Assembly: GCA_001972305.1 (NCBI GenBank)
Contig: BDDD01000435.1
Span: 656,365-720,364 of the forward strand
Reading direction: 5' to 3'
Origin: Cephalotus follicularis
Taxonomy: Eukaryota; Streptophyta; Magnoliopsida; Oxalidales; Cephalotaceae
DNA length: 64,000 nt
The position numbers and the translations under genes were made by a program. Each line of letters starts with the position of its first letter. Within the stretch, counting starts at the first letter, position 1. Shown piece by piece: positions 2,993 to 52,398 of the stretch. The notes below the pieces were generated by a model. It ran no database searches and was not told where the DNA came from. It saw only the letters and a program-made list of their open reading frames with translations.

Positions 2993-3866
2993 AACATCCT
3001 TTCCGATTTAGCTTCCTATGACATTCCTTTGATTCTTTTGTGAAATCTACATATCTTGCACACTTTAATAAGCATTAATGGCAAATTTCTTATCATCACA
3101 ATTAGGATTGAGCCAAAAATGTCAACATAGGTATTAACCCTTTGTTGGCTTTTTTTTTTTTAAATTCTGAAGACAATTAAATGCCTCCGGAAATTTAAAT
3201 TGATGCACTTCTATAATAATGCTGCTTACTGGGATATAATTATACAATGTTGTGGCCAACTTCCATAAAAGTCACTGCGCGCAGCTCAAACAGGATTGTT
3301 TGAGGTTGAGTGGGGATTGATCCAGGCTTGAGCTGGAACCAAATCCATCTGAACAGATCTTATTGGCCCAAGGCTGAACTAGGTTCAGAAATTTAAACTT
3401 TTTCCTTTTGAATTTCACACCTAAGAGATAACGGTAGACATCCAATCATATAATTTGTGATACCAATTAGACATTTTAAGGAAAACTTTTTAAACACAAT
3501 AAAACGGGTGAATTCTATGACAATTGTTAATTGACTTTTGAATATGGATTAAATATCTCGGGACAGAAAAAATTGTTGGTAAGGACTAATAATAATATGG
3601 GATAAAGGGAGTCTTATAATATATTTATTAGTAACCTTTCTTCCAAAACTTATAAGCTAACGGATCTTGAGCTCAAGAGTTTTAAAAGCCTTTCCTGAGC
3701 ACTAGTTCAAGTTCACATGCTCTACATCTGTTTTGTAAATTTTAGTAGCAATTTTTGGTCACTTATATGCAGGACTGAACTGATATCATGCTAGAATACT
3801 ATAATTGTGGTTCTGAGGTATTTGCACTATCAAGAAATGATGCTCTTACTCCATGGATTTCTGTAG
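2993..3866. other. Non-coding DNA 5' of the ARID exons
   Basis: Presumably intron or unrelated flank. I searched by eye for the preceding ARID exon (family sequence around LWRAVTRLGGY) and did not find it on this strand. The last bases form a good acceptor (CTGTAG) for the exon at 3867. Confidence 0.4.
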
Positions 3867-44040: not shown

Positions 44041-44784
44041 TCTTACAGAGATGCCACGTAGGGTGACACGTTCATCTATTGCTGGAGCTTCCACCACAGC
44101 TTCCGGTTCTACGCGTCCCAAGTCGGACAACATGGAGTTAGACACACGGGAGCAAGATACCGATGTTCCCAGCGCTAGTAAGGGAATTTACTATGTCACA
44201 ATAGTTCACCTAAATTGTCTTTCGTATTATCGAAAAAAATTTGTTATATTTTGTTAACCATATTTACAGTCAAACGTAACCATGTTTTTGAATCAGACTC
44301 TCATCAGCAACGAATGAGGGGAGCTAGTAGGGGAGCGAACTTGCCCCCACAGGGGGTGGAGGATTCTCGGCTTGTTCGCCATATCAGTGCCAATGGGTAA
44401 TTAACAAGTAATTTCAATACATTTTTTTAAAACTAACCTATCATTTTTGTGTTAATATTTGTTTAATTACAACTGTTTTGAGGACATGAATGTGAAGAAC
44501 ACTATAGCAGTCATTGTCAATGACAGAATACTGCACCCTTGGACCACGTGGAGCCAGTGGCCTGATTCAAAAAAGAAACTATTGTGGGAGAAGCTACTGG
44601 TGAGTAAAACTGTTACAGTTAACAATTAATATTATTGAAGATATTGTTATTTTCGTTATTATTTGACATTTATATTTTTTAGGAGTACTTCCACTTTCTG
44701 GTAGCTGATGCACATAGCAAACTTACATTCCACAGTTACGTACAGGAGAATTACCCAAACACTACTAGAAAAAAAACATTTCCT

Positions 44785-45060
44785 GACCGCTTTTTTTGCC
44801 GGCCGCCTTAGCGGTCGGCAAATGCCATCAAGTGAAATCGTGTTGCATTCCCATTGGCAACCTCAGTATTTTGGAATTGCCGACCGCCTAAGCGGTCAGA
44901 AATTCCAAAATTACAAAAATTATTATTTATTTCATTTTAGCAACCGCAGTTTTTGTTTTACCGACCGCTAAGGCGGTCGGTCATTACCAGAAAAAGAACA
45001 TTTCCAGCGTCATTTTAGCCGACCGCCTTTGTGGTCGGCAAACACTACTAGAGCGATCGG
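44785..45060. repeat. Left subterminal repeats of the inner CACTA element
   Basis: GCCGACCGC/GCGGTCGGC words recur about every 30-60 bp, often as inverted pairs with a short loop (CCGACCGCTAAGGCGGTCGG near 44960). In CACTA elements such repeats are binding sites for the element's own DNA-binding protein. Confidence 0.8.
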
Positions 45061-45179
45061 TAAATATCTTATTTCGAATTTATGCAGATGTGTTCCTTTT
45101 ACACGGTTTCGGTTCTTTTTTGTTAATAAAACAGTAAAAGCTTTAAAAAAAAAAAAAAAAGAAAAAAAAATTAAAACTC

Positions 45180-45386
45180 TCAGTTCCTCTCTCTCTCTTC
45201 CACTTGACCTAGCCCCCAATCTCTCTCTCTCACCTCGATCCACACATCTCTTCATCTCTGGCGACATCGGAGGTAGAAAAAAAAGCTTACTGTACTCTGG
45301 TGATATTATCGTTGCTGTCTGTCTCCGGTGACTTTGTTGTTGCCATCGCTGGTGACTTAGCCCTTTCCCCAGATTCCTGTTCCAGG
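45180..45386 (+). other. Possible first exon of a chimeric transcript
   Basis: A CT-rich leader (TCTCTCTCTTCCACTTGACC) is followed by about 130 bp ending TTCCAG, directly before GTATGT, a strong donor site. It lies between the left subterminal repeats and the captured protease exons on the same strand. It may be the 5' exon of a transcript reading into the captured gene. No ATG is obvious within it. Whether it comes from the host gene or elsewhere is unknown. Confidence 0.35.
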
Positions 45387-45609
45387 TATGTCTTTTTTTT
45401 TCCTGATCATGCTCTCTTTTTTCTCTTTACTTCACTTAACAATGGTAAAAACTTCACTGCCCGTTGTTTCCGAAAGCTAATATGCATTATCAGTAAGCTT
45501 GTCTGTTTTATAACAATGGTAAAAAAAGCTTATCAGTAAACTTCATAAATCTAATATTACATGTTCGAGATTTTTATAAGAAAGAGGTTCAAGCTATCCT
45601 GTAGGCATG

Positions 45610-45903
45610 TTATGTCCTGTTGAATGCCAATAGAATTTTGGAGGGATATGGTGCATCTATATGTGTGTGTTCATAAATAAAATAAATTAAAAAAAGGAAA
45701 ATAAAATATTAAGGACATGGAATGGGTATGCCTTCAGTCAGTGACTTAAGAAATGTTTATGTCTTGTTGAATGCCAATAGAATTTTGGAGGGACATGGTG
45801 CATCTATATGTGTGTGTTCATAAATAAAATAAATTAAAAAAAAGGAAAATAAAATATCAAGGACATGGAATGGGTATGCCTTCAGTCAGTGACTTAAGAA
45901 ATG
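45610..45903. repeat. 148-bp tandem duplication in captured intron DNA
   Basis: Two nearly identical copies start TATGTCYTGTTGAATGCC at about 45610 and 45758, ending at the TCAGTGACTTAAGAAATG phrase. A third, partial start is seen at 45916 (TATGTCAATAGAATTTT). Confidence 0.8.
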
Positions 45904-45936
45904 TGTTACCCTGGGTATGTCAATAGAATTTTTTAG

Positions 45937-48900
45937 GGCAATTCCAGGATTAAATGAAGCCGGCAAGGCTCTTTTAGGTAATATAATTGAAATATCATCC
46001 AAAGAAATTTTATACATATCAAATAATATATAGAGAGTTCTATGGATTTATTTGTATTAAGAGCAGAGAATCCTACTTAATTTTTTATTTGTTCTTCTGC
46101 CAAGCTTTGATATTCTCTTGCTAATTTAGTTGTTGCTTTCTTACTTTATTGCAAGACCTTTTGTGACACATTTGGTAGAATCAATTAACTGCTTGTGCTC
46201 GGCGATGTTGAAGTCAAGCATTGTTTGTACCGCTAATATCATTGTTGTCCGCTCTTCGCCATTAGCTTGACAGGCGTAGTGATCATGGTTTTAAAAGGCC
46301 TCATTAGGGGAGTGCAGCTCCCAACATTATGAGAACCGCAAAAATTTCTTGACTTTTCCATGTTTGGATCCAGATTACCTCAACAACATGCGGCAAATTT
46401 ACTTCTTGATTATTGAACTTTCCTTATGGTTTAATTTATTGCTTTCTATTCTGTTTGATTTTATTTCCATTTCAGTTAAGTTTCAACTACCTTCTGTTCA
46501 TTCTTTGGATGCTCTTAGGGGCATCTCCCTCTGGAATATTATTGTTTGGGCTCCTTGGCCACTACGAATGACCTAACATGTGCCTTAGGAATGTTTCTTG
46601 TAATTCTTTTTGACATAGTATTGGTTACAATGTCATAAAATATACGCTTTGTAAACTGGATGTTGGCCAATCCATGTTACCTACATTAGTTGAAGCAGCT
46701 ACATGGTGATCTACAGATTAACTTGTTAACATTGAAATTGACTACCTGTGCTGCATTACCGCCTAATGCTTATTACGTCATTTAAAATCTGGCAATTGAA
46801 TGTCTACTGTTTCGGTTGTGATAAGCAGGAGTTCGTTTTGTCTAACACATTGACTTCAAGGGTGCTACATGAAATGCTCTGTACTTGTATATTTCATTTA
46901 TCTCTATTTTGAGAATATTATGTGAATTTCCTGCTTCTGAGGAGTTGTGGTGGTTAATATGTTGACTGTAAGCAGTGTCCTTAACATGTTATTGTAGGAA
47001 GTATGACGGAGCAGATCATGCTTCTTGAGAATATAGGAACTTCGGTTCTTGTTTCTAAAAACCAGGTTGGTTAAAACTCAGTGAATGACATGGTAAAGGA
47101 CGATAAATATCTTCTTTGATATTATTGATGTTAGATGTTTGATATGTATTGGTTCTTTTCATGAAAATATCACATGCTACGAATGTCTTTTTTTTTTCTC
47201 TTTGTTTTCCTATCGAGGCATATCAACAGGTATACATGAAGAGATTAAATTATCTAAGGGGCCTCGTAACACATTTTGAATATTTATTGTCAAGTTCTTT
47301 TATGTTCTGTTCAAGTTTTGGTATTCTAACACTTTTACTCAATATTTTCTGCTTTGCGAGGTTTCTATTTTTCTAACTTATATATGGAGATCATATATCT
47401 CTAGGCCTTGCAACAAGTTAGGGGGAGTTCTAGACTAGATTCTAATTGTTTCTATCATTTACCTTAAGATAACAATGCTAGTCTGCACAGTCATTAAATG
47501 TTGTTTCTTTTATATGCCGAATGTTGTAAATTTCAACATTGCTTTCGGTATTACATAAGTAATAATAAGGGTTTTCACTTGAAGAAATTGTTGTATTTTT
47601 CTCTCTGTGAGCAAGTTTGTGTTATGCATATCTGACAGGAGTTAGGATGTATGCTTGCCATCACATACTGTGACAATATCAAGTCTGAAGGATCCATTGC
47701 CAAACCACTTACCTCTTTGTTTCCTTGCTTAGGATATATTGTTGCACGCGCTATTACATACGGGTCTTTTTTTTAATACATCTTGTTATGTTATATAGAT
47801 CTCAATTTCTTATGAAATTTTGCATTTGTTCCCATTGTGAAAAGTCATATTTGTGTAGTCAATTATGTTGACATTTTTATCTACTGATGTTTTAAATGAT
47901 TGACTTCCTGCACCAGCTTTCTGAGATTCATCAATTAATGACTGAAGCTGCGAAAATTCTGGCCATAGAGGCTCCTGATCTCTACATCCGTCAAAGTCCT
48001 GTTCCAAACGCATATACATTGACCATAAGTGGTAAAAAGACATTTGTTGTTGTTCATACCAGCCTTGTGGAGCTTCTGACACGAAAGGAGTTGCAGGTCT
48101 TTTATTTTTTCCTTGTTACCAACATTTTTGTCGTTATATGTTATCCCATCTTTTCACCCCTTCCCCTATGGCATTTTTTTCACCCCTTCCACTGTTCATA
48201 GTTTCTGTGCTTTAACACTTAAAGGTGCAACTGCATTGGTTATTGTTTGGTTTGTGTTTTCATCTTCTGTTAATATTTCTGCTTTTTTAAGTTTCATAGA
48301 TCATATATTTTTAAATAATCGTGCTATCTTTCAAATGATGATATGCTATCAACTTTCCACTATTCATTCGTAAATAGGCTGTTCTGGCTCACGAGCTGGG
48401 GCATCTAAAATGTGATCATGGTGTATGGCTTACATTTGCAAACATTCTTATGCTTGAAGCCTACCGGTAGGTGTTTTGTTGTTCTTTCATTTACTAAAGT
48501 CAAATTGAACACTCTCATTATCTTATGTTTTGTTCATTAAAAATATAAATATTGGAAAGTGGGAGCTAAGACGCAAAGCTCATATTGTATATGCCTTCAA
48601 CAAGAAAACGTTTTTTTTTTTGGAGAAAAATGATATTTCTAATTTCCATTCTGTTAAAAAATACACAGTTTTATTTTATGCCATGTAGTTTTGGAGTCAT
48701 ATGCTAACGATAAGAGACCTTTGTATATGTTTAAGAAGGTTTGCTTATATCACCATGACTATAGATGAAAATGAAAATTTTAAAAATTTCAATCCATGAC
48801 TCTGCGGACCTGTTAAGCACCATAATCTGAAAGGAGAAAGTTTGCCTGGGGACTGTTAGATCACGGATATGAACACCGTGTGTCAATGCATCTTCAGCAC

Positions 48901-49681
48901 TCTTGTTATAAATTCAATCTTGTCAAATAGTTTGGTATCCAGATTACAGGTTTAAATTATAATCTCTCCTGAGGTTATAAATGCCTGTTTGTTCATAGGA
49001 CTTGGTGGGTTTATAGCTCAGAGCTTAGAAGAGAACTTATTCCATTGGTTCCGAGCAGCAGAGCTAACATGTGATCGTGCAGCTCTTCTTGTTGCCCAGG
49101 ACCCAAAGGTATGCAAAATTGAAATTTCAAAAGTACCAATCCTTATATTAGCAATCGTTAGGCAAAATTGAAATTTCAGAACTACCATCGTCAGATTAGC
49201 GTCCCCAAAATTTTCAGCGATTAGCATCCATAATGTTTGTCATTTAATTTGATTATTTGATTTTCATTCTGATGCTCCTACAAGAGGTGGTCATATCCGT
49301 TTTGATGAAACTAGCTGGAGGCTGCCCATCTATGGCTGATCAACTAAATGTTGATGCTTTTTTGGAGCAAGCTCGCTCGTATGATATAGCTTCTTCAAGT
49401 CTAGTGGGTTGGTATATAAAGTGAGGTACACGCAGAGGACCAGAAAGCTGGGTATCAGTTTCATTTTCCACTTTTTTTTGTCTAATTGACTCATGCTGTT
49501 TAGAAATGCTCAAACGAGGCAACTGTCACACCCTCTGCCTGTTCTACGTGCTCGTGAGATTGATGAATGGTCAAAAAGTCAAGACTACACAAGTCTTTTA
49601 AGACGTGCAATACAGATGAATGATCTGCCAAGGTCTAATACTGATCTGGAGTTGGTCGAAATCTCAAACAGCCTTAAATAG
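45937..49681 (+). pseudogene. Captured M48 metallopeptidase gene, PGM48-like, C-terminal exons
   Basis: Seven exons: 45937-45977, 46998-47065, 47917-48096, 48378-48466, 48999-49108, 49287-49420, 49504-49681 (stop). Plant PGM48 is a zinc protease of plastid plastoglobules linked to leaf senescence; assignment here is from memory of the family. Visible motifs: AIPGLNEAGKALL, MTEQIMLLENIGTSVLVS, RQSPVPNAYTL, zinc site AHELGH in exon 4, third-ligand region AELTCDRAALL in exon 5, ADQLNVDAFLEQARSYD, LSHPLPVLRAREIDEW. All zinc ligands are present. Phases close at every junction except exon 4/5, where the simple splice is out of phase by one, so one small coding change or a different splice site is needed. 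The N-terminal and transit-peptide exons are absent. The whole gene lies inside the inner CACTA element. Confidence 0.8.
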
Positions 49682-50379
49682 GTATGAGCTAAATGTTTAA
49701 CTAATCTTTTCTTTTCTTGTCTTCTCAAGGGAAATTGACTGGTAAATTTACCTTGTAGCATGAATGTAACTATTATCATTGTGATTCGACAAATCTATCT
49801 CCTTGCATAGTCTACCAGTATAAATTACTAGAATAGAATATTAATGACTCGGCCCTAAATGTGAGTAATTCTACAGCTGGCCGTATAAAATGACAGGTCA
49901 TGCATCTGCAGAGCAGGTTATTCTTCACTCGATTTGTTTGCCATTCGTTACATTTATAAAGGGCAGCTCAGTGAAAGAGGCTCCCGCCACTGAGGGTTCT
50001 GGCGATGGTTAGGTGTAAATTTGTAATATTTCTATAAATCTTGGCGATGGTTTAGTGTACATTTGTAACATTTCTATAAATCTTGTACATTTATAGAAAA
50101 CATTTTCTCTTGAAAGTTCAACCATAGTATATTATATCCTGATAAGAATCATATTTCTGTATAGATTTTGTTTACTCTGCTATTAAACACATTAACATTT
50201 ATGTATCTATACTAACAGAGTAAACTTATTCATTTTGTGGATCTATACTTGAAGGAATTTAAGTATCAGTCCTTCCTGTTTTAATAATAATCTAGAGTTA
50301 CATATTATGTGATGTTCTGAGTATATCTGATGATCATCTTTATTAGTGTGGGACAAGCTTTGATTTGCAAACTTGTCAG

Positions 50380-50975
50380 CGCGATCGGCAAGTTTAAATA
50401 TTCCCCGACCGTCAGCGCGGTTGGCAAATCCTTATAAAATTCATTTTATTTAAAAAAATATTGATAATTACTGACCGCTTAAATATTCTCCGACCGCTTT
50501 GGCGGTCGGCCAATCCTTATAAAATTAATTTAATTTAAAAATTATGTTAATTGCCGACCGCTTAAAGATTTACCGACTGCCATTGGTCGTCGGGGAACCA
50601 TTATAAAACTACTTTAATTTCGAAAATCATGGTTAATTGCCGACCGCTAATTGATTTCCCGACCGTTTATAGCGGTCGGCAAACATTATAAAATTAAATT
50701 AATTTCACAAATTTCTTTTATTTCCCGACCACTGACAACATTCGCCGACCGCTTGAGCGGTCGGTAAACGTTCATAAAATTTAATTTCTGACATCGATCA
50801 ACAGCAACCACTTCCCTTCCCGACCGTTTTCACGGTCGGCAAATGAAAAAGGCGGTCTGGGAAACGGTCGGGCTATAATCAGTGACCCAATTATAAGCGA
50901 CCGCCATTGCGGTCGGGGAAAACTTTCGCCGACTGCTTTTAAGGTTTTCCGGACCGCTTTGGCGGTCGGGAAATG
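50380..50975. repeat. Right subterminal repeats of the inner CACTA element
   Basis: At least a dozen CCGACCGC or GCGGTCGG words, in about 70-110-bp units with an AT-rich spacer (CATTATAAAATTAAATTAATTT type). The unit order suggests local tandem amplification. Confidence 0.8.
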
Positions 50976-52398
50976 GTCTTTTTCTAGTAGTGAAAGTGGA
51001 TGCGTAAATTTAGAAATAAGTCGATGACCAATGTTGGTATGCATCATATGAGTCTTGAGTGGTCCTGAGTGCAAGCGGCATCGCCCAACAGAGATACCAA
51101 AGCCAGTGTGGGATCAGATGGTGGACATCTGGATGTCAGAGGATTTTCAGAAGAGGGAAAGAACAAATGCCACCAACAAGGAGAACGAATTGCAGACCAC
51201 CTACACTAGCTGTAGCTACACGATGGAGAGAGAGGCAACTTAAGATTGGGGTAAAGAATATTGCACCATTGTAATTATGGTGATTAATAAACTTAATTTG
51301 TGTTACAGACATCTCACGAAATAACGTTTAACTTGTAAGAAGCCAAGGGAAAAAAGATGGAGGATGTATACTACGACACTCATTGGAGCGTGAAGGAGGA
51401 CACACTTCCACCTCCTATTGTAGTGGAAATGGTGGTGAGTCACAAACTATAATAAATATGTCAATTACCATTTGTATGTTAATTACTTAACTGATTAAAT
51501 TTGTATTTTTTGAGGCTGCTAGTGGGTCAGATACTGCAGAGGGGCCCTTCAACGTCGTGGCATGGACGAAGGCGGCTGGAGGTACAAGAAAGGGCAAGAT
51601 CTGTGGCTTGGAGAACTACATGATTTCCACGAATATGCTACCACAAGCACTTTGTAATCCATTAGCAATGGGCAGTCAAAGTCACTCTTTCACTTCACAA
51701 CCATCAGAGGTTGGACCTAGAACGGACAAGGCCACAGACCTCGACTACAGATGTCTCATATTCAGACCACGTTGCAGGTTTAGATGCCTCAAATAAGTCA
51801 GCTGACTCAGATGGTTGCCAGTCAATTTGCATCATCATTGGGACGATCTAGATCTGACCATAGTACGTCGCAGAATCAATCATCTCTGGATTCCAACCAT
51901 AGCGATTCTGAATCATAGTTTGATTACAATTGTTGATTTTGATACAGTTTATAATTGTTTATTTGTAAATATATTACACTTTTTATAAGTATGATATAAA
52001 GTTCAGTTGTAATGTTTTGTTACTTCAATGTGAATTAAATGTTTTATTGAGCATTTATGAATTGAGTCCATAGGACAATTGAAATATGAACTGTTATTGT
52101 GGTTGTTGATAAGAATTACAGGTTTTACTTGGATGAGGAATAGATCATACTGCTAGAACTAACAGTAGGATGTGCAGAATGGCGAGGGCATGACGAGGGG
52201 ATTTGCCCTCGTCATATTGCTGATTCAACATGGCAAGGGGATGCGCGAGTTATTGGTGCAGCGTGCAACGGGCACTCAACGGCGAGGGGACGGTACCCTC
52301 ACTAAGTCTTCGCAATACCCTCGCTTAGAAGATTGTGAGGAGATAAACGGCGATGGGATATGCCCACACCATTGATTGTTTTTTTTTTTTTTGTAGTG

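Follow-up and report, generated by a model that had tools for sequence, protein, structure and literature searches.

A Pack-CACTA element of Cephalotus follicularis carrying most of an M48 peptidase gene, probably as a passenger pseudogene

When most of a protease gene is found between the two ends of a transposon, the question is whether the transposon has spread a working duplicate of that gene or a dead passenger. We have analysed such a case in 64,000 nucleotides of Cephalotus follicularis DNA (contig BDDD01000435.1, positions 656,365 to 720,364; C435:656365-720364 in our contig numbering), a stretch hereafter called the window. A previous reading of this sequence, the original prediction, postulated that the CACTA element at 44760-50992 had captured nearly 4 kb of an M48 metallopeptidase gene with introns and all zinc ligands, and could be spread as a duplicate protease lacking its transit peptide. 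The window was compared with the genome assembly (1.58 Gb in 9746 contigs). The explanation we consider very probable is capture in one event, loss of the reading frame, mobilisation in trans to at least ten sites and neutral decay, which would make the captured gene a passenger pseudogene.

The window element is 6233 bp long, lies on the forward strand and is non-autonomous; its ends and target-site duplication (TSD; AAA/AAA on the two flanks) were read from the sequence. It starts with CACTACTAG at 44760 and ends with CTAGTAGTG at 50992, and the 31-nt inverted repeats formed by the two ends are 90% complementary. The assignment to the CACTA (En/Spm) class is based on inverted repeats starting with CACTA, the 3-bp TSD, the subterminal repeats (families D1-D3) and the existence of a TNP2 relative; GACCGC/GCGGTCGG repeats are present near both the left and the right end. 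The positions of all parts are given in Table 1.

A search with the captured gene block, in which all 12 first-look candidates were scored, found it at ten insertions: C435 (the window), C40, C796, C1403, C2425, C845, C3476, C119 and two on C1654, an outer and an inner one. The C40 copy is a full-length sister of the window element (97.06% identical) and spans the whole block, as does C796. In the seven remaining copies outside the window internal stretches are missing; part of the internal gap of the outer C1654 copy consists of assembly Ns. The 5' junction between transposon and gene is identical in the seven insertions that retain it and the 3' junction is identical in all ten. Matching 3-bp TSDs are found at eight of the ten (C435, C40, C796, C2425, C3476, C1654 inner, C1654 outer and C119). 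The flanks are unrelated to each other; a comparison of 19 flanks (both sides of all ten insertions except for the left side of C119) gave a single match, 75% over 148 bp. Because the outer junctions are the same wherever they are retained at the ten insertions, we conclude that a single capture was followed by amplification. A tree of the copies has almost the shape of a star, its support values are low (5-90), and no claim is based on it. The element is thus a Pack-CACTA: non-autonomous, with host coding DNA whose parent is located elsewhere, and present in several copies which have been mobile as a unit. The outer copy on C1654 (C1654:24386-58760, TSD TTA at both far ends) was broken up afterwards by further insertions; the order of its three pieces and the TTA on the far ends suggest that they are one insertion. 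A second M48-bearing copy, with TSD TTT, is located inside the stretch that the outer copy covers.

An empty site could be identified for the window insertion. The DNA flanking the element (window:44314-44759 and 50996-51651) is itself a CACTA-like transposon, and a relative of this host which lacks the element lies inside the C2425 copy. When the two window flanks are joined they match this relative continuously from query position 255 to 1356, across the joint at 700, with 73% identity. The relative has the ends CACTACTAAAAAACAGGG...CCCTTTTCTGTAGTG, and one of its open frames gives a Transposase_24 match below the cut-off (E=0.0074).

The parent of the captured block is located at C339:333001-337175. 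Its eight exons are separated by seven introns, all GT..AG, and its open frame encodes 343 amino acids; the protein matches Peptidase_M48 (PF01435, residues 113-307, E=2.7e-19) with weak similarity to the structure of an HtpX-type protease (3cqb, E=8.9e-5). With an M48 domain in an open frame it is predicted to be a metallopeptidase. Window 45932-50382 aligns to C339 in a single collinear match, 93.8% identical when gaps are counted; with gaps left out the Kimura two-parameter distance (K2P) between block and parent is 0.0266. The block measures 4.44 kb, its limits being approximate to a few bases, and contains parts of seven of the eight parental exons in one piece. Its 5' junction falls within parental exon 2; on the 3' side it includes the natural stop codon and extends to a junction about 700 bp beyond it. 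Exon 1, which presumably carries the transit peptide, is not in the element. A whole-genome protein search with all 56 candidates scored gave 48 exon-sized matches. The C339 matches account for all eight exons except exon 2, which is too short to appear alone; those outside C339 all fall at transposon copies, and C339 is the only locus found with exon 1 in this search. Downstream of the captured gene a 42-bp tandem duplication (window:50000-50083) is also present in the parent.

Much of the original prediction holds. The CACTA ends, the 3-bp TSD and the subterminal repeats on both sides are as it described them, and the seven exons, among them those encoding AHELGH and AELTCDRAALL, are there with their splice signals. 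The capture of gene sequence with introns stands too, its size being about 4.44 kb and not nearly 4 kb. A full-length parent, which it proposed to look for, exists as an intact gene, and the part of the protein it considered missing would correspond to the absent exon 1. No continuation of the exons beyond the CACTA ends is seen in this genome, and these ends recur at other sites together with their cargo; neither of the observations that would have refuted the original prediction was thus made here.

The part that falls is the duplicate protease with all its zinc ligands. The original prediction was uncertain about the junction of exons 4 and 5, and the difficulty resolves into a frame-breaking deletion of 8 nt in exon 5, just past ...LMLEAY, which places HELGH and AELTC in different frames. 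Spliced and read from the exon 3 ATG, the window gene gives 135 codons up to the TGA at 49072-49074, with AELTC out of frame; HExxH and a downstream Glu ligand are not found in one reading frame. The same deletion is found in all eight insertions which keep the site (C435, C40, C796, C1403, C2425, C845, C119 and C1654 outer), so in each of these the HExxH exon and the third-ligand exon are out of frame with each other; the site itself has been lost in C3476 and C1654 inner. The deletion is taken as the derived state because the frame of the parent is open. Bacterial and archaeal homologues were sought to polarise the change, and none of the 45 pattern matches was confirmed. Several copies have acquired further damage: the exon-4 acceptor AG is AA in C40 and C1403, the exon-3 and exon-5 donors are lost in C1403, and stops in the parental frame occur in C796 (two) and C1403 (one), with one more common to C845, C3476 and C1654 outer. 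The captured gene thus reads as a passenger pseudogene and not as a working duplicate.

The pattern of change among the copies was read in the frame of the parent; gap columns were excluded, as were the opening 20 nt of exon 2. The 62 changes which are not fixed across the copies comprise 42 nonsynonymous, 16 synonymous and 4 stop changes, to be compared with neutral expectations of 0.698, 0.263 and 0.039, respectively. The mean difference between copies is 0.0229 in exons, 0.0197 in introns and 0.0237 downstream, and the corresponding means between copy and parent are 0.0286, 0.0248 and 0.0270 (the pairs entering these means are not independent). No coding constraint is visible in the evolution of the copies, which matches the neutral expectation, and the exons are no more conserved than the introns. 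Pairwise K2P is 0.017-0.026 between copies and 0.022-0.029 to the parent. With a substitution rate near 7e-9 per site per year these distances would correspond to some one to two million years; the figure is an upper guide because methylated transposons mutate faster.

The differences fixed between the parent and all copies number 13 in 792 exonic sites (10 nonsynonymous, 3 synonymous), 38 in 2844 intronic sites and 5 in 699 downstream sites. Fixed differences are not rarer in exons, and the history before the burst therefore likewise gives no sign of exon conservation. This density would fit a source other than the C339 gene, namely an allele that had diverged, or a paralogue since lost, which was a pseudogene carrying the 8-nt deletion by the time it was captured. 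The same pattern is, however, expected if the founder element resided for some time before it multiplied, and the genome searches found no second source locus for the block in this genome. We regard such a source as unlikely.

Related CACTA elements tell something about the lineage. The element L060 (C2418:17170-26773) is 9.6 kb long with TSD TGT/TGT, and both its ends are about 86% identical to those of the window element, the last base of one end being altered. It contains a stop-to-stop frame of 741 amino acids with Transposase_21 (E=4.1e-81) and Transpos_assoc (E=5.3e-21) matches, both above cut-off. In the genome-wide TNP2 search 150 of 2659 first-look candidates were scored, and there may be further mobilising elements beyond L060. 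L061 (on C6804, L061:101-4643; 4.54 kb, TSD TAA/TAA) shares most of the 5' part of the window element up to 45912 and has other sequence beyond this point. Its positions 1537-1650 match the vacuolar cationic amino acid transporter 4 (CAT4; PDB 9hjk, E=6.5e-11), and most of this stretch is also present in L060 (90%). The sister element L050 carries the CAT4-like exon as well. Related elements had thus captured another gene piece, and the ancestor of the window element itself may have carried the CAT4-like piece before the M48 capture. Even the transposase-encoding form thus has a captured CAT4-like stretch (L060:742-891), the CAT4 match having been tested on L061. Pfam gave no match for L061 3101-3301, 3723-3851, 1537-1650 or 3412-3549, nor for L060 742-891, and two other exon-like pieces of L061 gave Pfam matches below cut-off only; a PDB search of L061 3723-3851 gave no match. 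L061:3101-3301 and 3723-3851, two exon-like open stretches, may resemble SEC14/CRAL-TRIO and kinesin-4 sequences, a resemblance which Pfam (both) and PDB (3723-3851) did not confirm. L050 on C1726 and L061 on C6804 are the same CACTA insertion with flanks about 98% identical over 1.3 kb, which is either a segmental duplication or two assembly haplotypes. Two further relatives were considered: L052, which holds a 2.6-kb CACTA with different contents, was set aside except for its right-end repeats, and L053, more than half N, was not used.

The model we favour can now be formulated. A non-autonomous CACTA from a lineage whose relatives carry other gene pieces copied a 4.44-kb genomic stretch of the M48 gene in between its ends in one event, as the common outer junctions and the intact parent show. 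The captured gene lost 8 nt in the HELGH exon before amplification, either just before or just after capture. The element was then mobilised to at least ten sites. The transposase acting in trans was most likely the TNP2 of a related CACTA, since the ends are similar and a TNP2 element is present in the genome. The copies subsequently decayed neutrally and through internal deletion. As to how the gene was acquired, a 147-bp unit present in one copy in L050 and L061 is found as two copies and a partial third in the window element, just 5' of the M48 junction. Tandem repeats at this junction suggest copying with template switching in gap repair; the 147-bp repeats fit repeated switching during repair without proving it.

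Some points weigh against this model. The loss of function is deduced from sequence. The TSDs of two of the ten insertions do not match (C845, TTG/TTA; C1403, GAG/AAA). Apart from the stops that follow from the frameshift common to the copies, the window copy has none, and its exons 3-8 have all kept their splice dinucleotides. The divergence from the parent could include time spent in an unsampled allele or paralogue. It should also be noted that the literature does not present dead captures as the norm, since most of the CACTA-captured genes tested in wheat are reported to be under purifying selection (PMC4290129).

A different role for the copies would be that of a trans-silencer, the ten copies making small RNAs which lower the expression of the parent gene. 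The copies are dispersed, have nearly identical exons and agree with the parent at about 97% of aligned bases, and in maize the presence or absence of transcripts of transposon-related gene fragments has been linked to the expression of their full-length relatives (PMC3547793). Against it, the captured gene is in sense orientation relative to the leader of the element (no search was made for an antisense promoter). We consider it improbable. Slightly less probable still is a combined hypothesis in which the lineage traps genes serially. A CACTA whose leader exon and donor lie 5' of the capture site would have taken up one gene after another, the CAT4-like exon in L060/L061 and the M48 gene in the line of the window element, and the ten M48 copies would also feed small RNAs tuning the parent protease.

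The leader is also what a functional duplicate would depend on. This hypothesis states that the window copy encodes a cytosolic M48 protease, expressed from the leader and acting on new substrates. A CT-rich stretch from about 45180 is common to the window element and the TNP2 element L060, and the donor-like CCAG/GTATG at 45387 is common to the window element and L061. No ATG occurs between 45091 and 45387, two being found just upstream at 45082 and 45088. The segment 45180-45386 might be used as an exon upstream of the in-frame ATG of exon 3, and the intact splice dinucleotides are in favour of this. A transcript so spliced would, however, be translated from the ATG at 47003 and give the truncated 135-codon peptide without the third zinc ligand. 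With the frameshift in eight of eight insertions, this early stop and the neutral pattern of change among the copies, a working duplicate is rejected as very unlikely. Weakest of all is the idea that no capture took place and that CACTAs inserted on both sides of a native gene. Such an arrangement could by itself place exons between two CACTA ends, but it is refuted, to near certainty, by ten sites with the same junctions, different flanks and mostly matching TSDs, by the native gene with exon 1 at C339 and by an empty site for the whole unit.

Gene capture by CACTA elements is well established, and the window element is a further, unusually complete case which carries what appears to be a pseudogene. 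The study of wheat chromosome 3B reports 140 CACTA capture events with a mean of 3.05 exons per captured gene, one captured gene in seven copies of one CACTA family, and 46% of captured genes likely functional in structure, the remainder being classed as pseudogenes (PMC4290129). The likeness lies in multi-exon host genes between CACTA ends in multiple copies. In contrast to these wheat cases, the window element has parts of seven of eight exons in one piece with the parent identified in the genome, its disabling change predates the amplification and coding constraint is not seen. Tgm-Express1 of soybean is a 5.7-kb CACTA that contains five fragments, all from unrelated genes, and their exons can be spliced (PMC1947982); it is similar in bearing gene pieces with exons and introns and differs in that the window element contains a single gene that is nearly complete. 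At least one other captured exon (CAT4-like) is found in its sister L061. Pack-TYPE elements are known in several plants, and the window element shares with them the non-autonomous character, the autonomous-type ends, the captured coding DNA and transduplication (PMC8903248). One proposed route of Pack-TYPE capture is that neighbouring insertions are fused by aberrant excision (PMC13317346); in contrast, among the matches listed between window 44400-51400 and the 15.3 kb around the parent none above 80 nt, gene block apart, is a trace of the CACTA parts. Coding sequence captured together with its 3' UTR (untranslated region) has been found in grapevine CACTAs (PMC2528002).

On the basis of its Pfam M48 membership, we find it plausible to take the parent as a candidate orthologue of PGM48 (AT3G27110). 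PGM48 is a plastoglobule metallopeptidase, according to two reports (PMC9725166, PMC8702529), and the likeness is that the parent is a Peptidase_M48 member with an extra N-terminal exon. The locus is of use as a worked example of transduplication from one genome, where a parent, a sister lacking the M48 block, a TNP2 relative, an empty site and an order of events are all available. The order recovered is capture and frame loss, in either sequence, followed by the burst. Nearly complete captured genes with intact-looking motifs can thus be dead at the time of amplification; a reading of motifs alone would have called this one a working protease duplicate.

Table 1. Parts of the Pack-CACTA element and of the captured gene (window positions)
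Feature	Position	Strand	Basis or remark
Left TSD AAA	44757-44759	.	Partner 50993-50995; empty-site relative in C2425
Whole Pack-CACTA element	44760-50992	+	Ends, TSD, full-length sister C40 at 97.06%
Left terminal inverted repeat, 31 nt	44760-44790	+	Pair I1 with 50962-50992, 90% complementary
Left subterminal repeats (CCGACCGC...GCGGTCGG)	44786-45044	+	Repeat families D1, D2
Putative transposon leader exon (5' UTR-like)	45180-45386	+	CT-rich start, donor-like CCAG/GTATG at 45387
147-bp tandem unit	45610-45938	+	45610-45756, 45757-45903, partial third reaching junction
Captured M48 peptidase gene block	45939-50381	+	Exon 2 tail to ~700 bp beyond stop
Exon 2 remnant	45940-45977	+	Parental exon 2 is 58 nt
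Exon 3, in-frame ATG at 47003	46998-47065	+	Alignment to parent
Exon 4	47917-48096	+	Alignment to parent
Exon 5 with AHELGH, 89 nt (parent 97 nt)	48378-48466	+	8-nt deletion between 48463 and 48464
Exon 6 with AELTCDRAALL, wrong entry frame, TGA at 49072-49074	48999-49108	+	Alignment to parent
Exon 7	49287-49420	+	Alignment to parent
Exon 8 with natural stop TAG	49504-49681	+	Alignment to parent
Right subterminal repeats, period ~85 bp	50394-50975	+	Repeat analysis
Right terminal inverted repeat, 31 nt	50962-50992	-	Repeat pairing with left end
Right TSD AAA	50993-50995	.	Partner 44757-44759

Outside the element, no known RNA families were found in the window at gathering thresholds. The window starts with a perfect tandem duplication with a 190-bp unit (window:1-365). 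Amid remains of retrotransposon gag and reverse transcriptase are a frame with a PCC domain of the AT-hook type (window:33687-34571, reverse strand) and a frame for an UNC-93-like transporter (window:58903-59787, forward strand).

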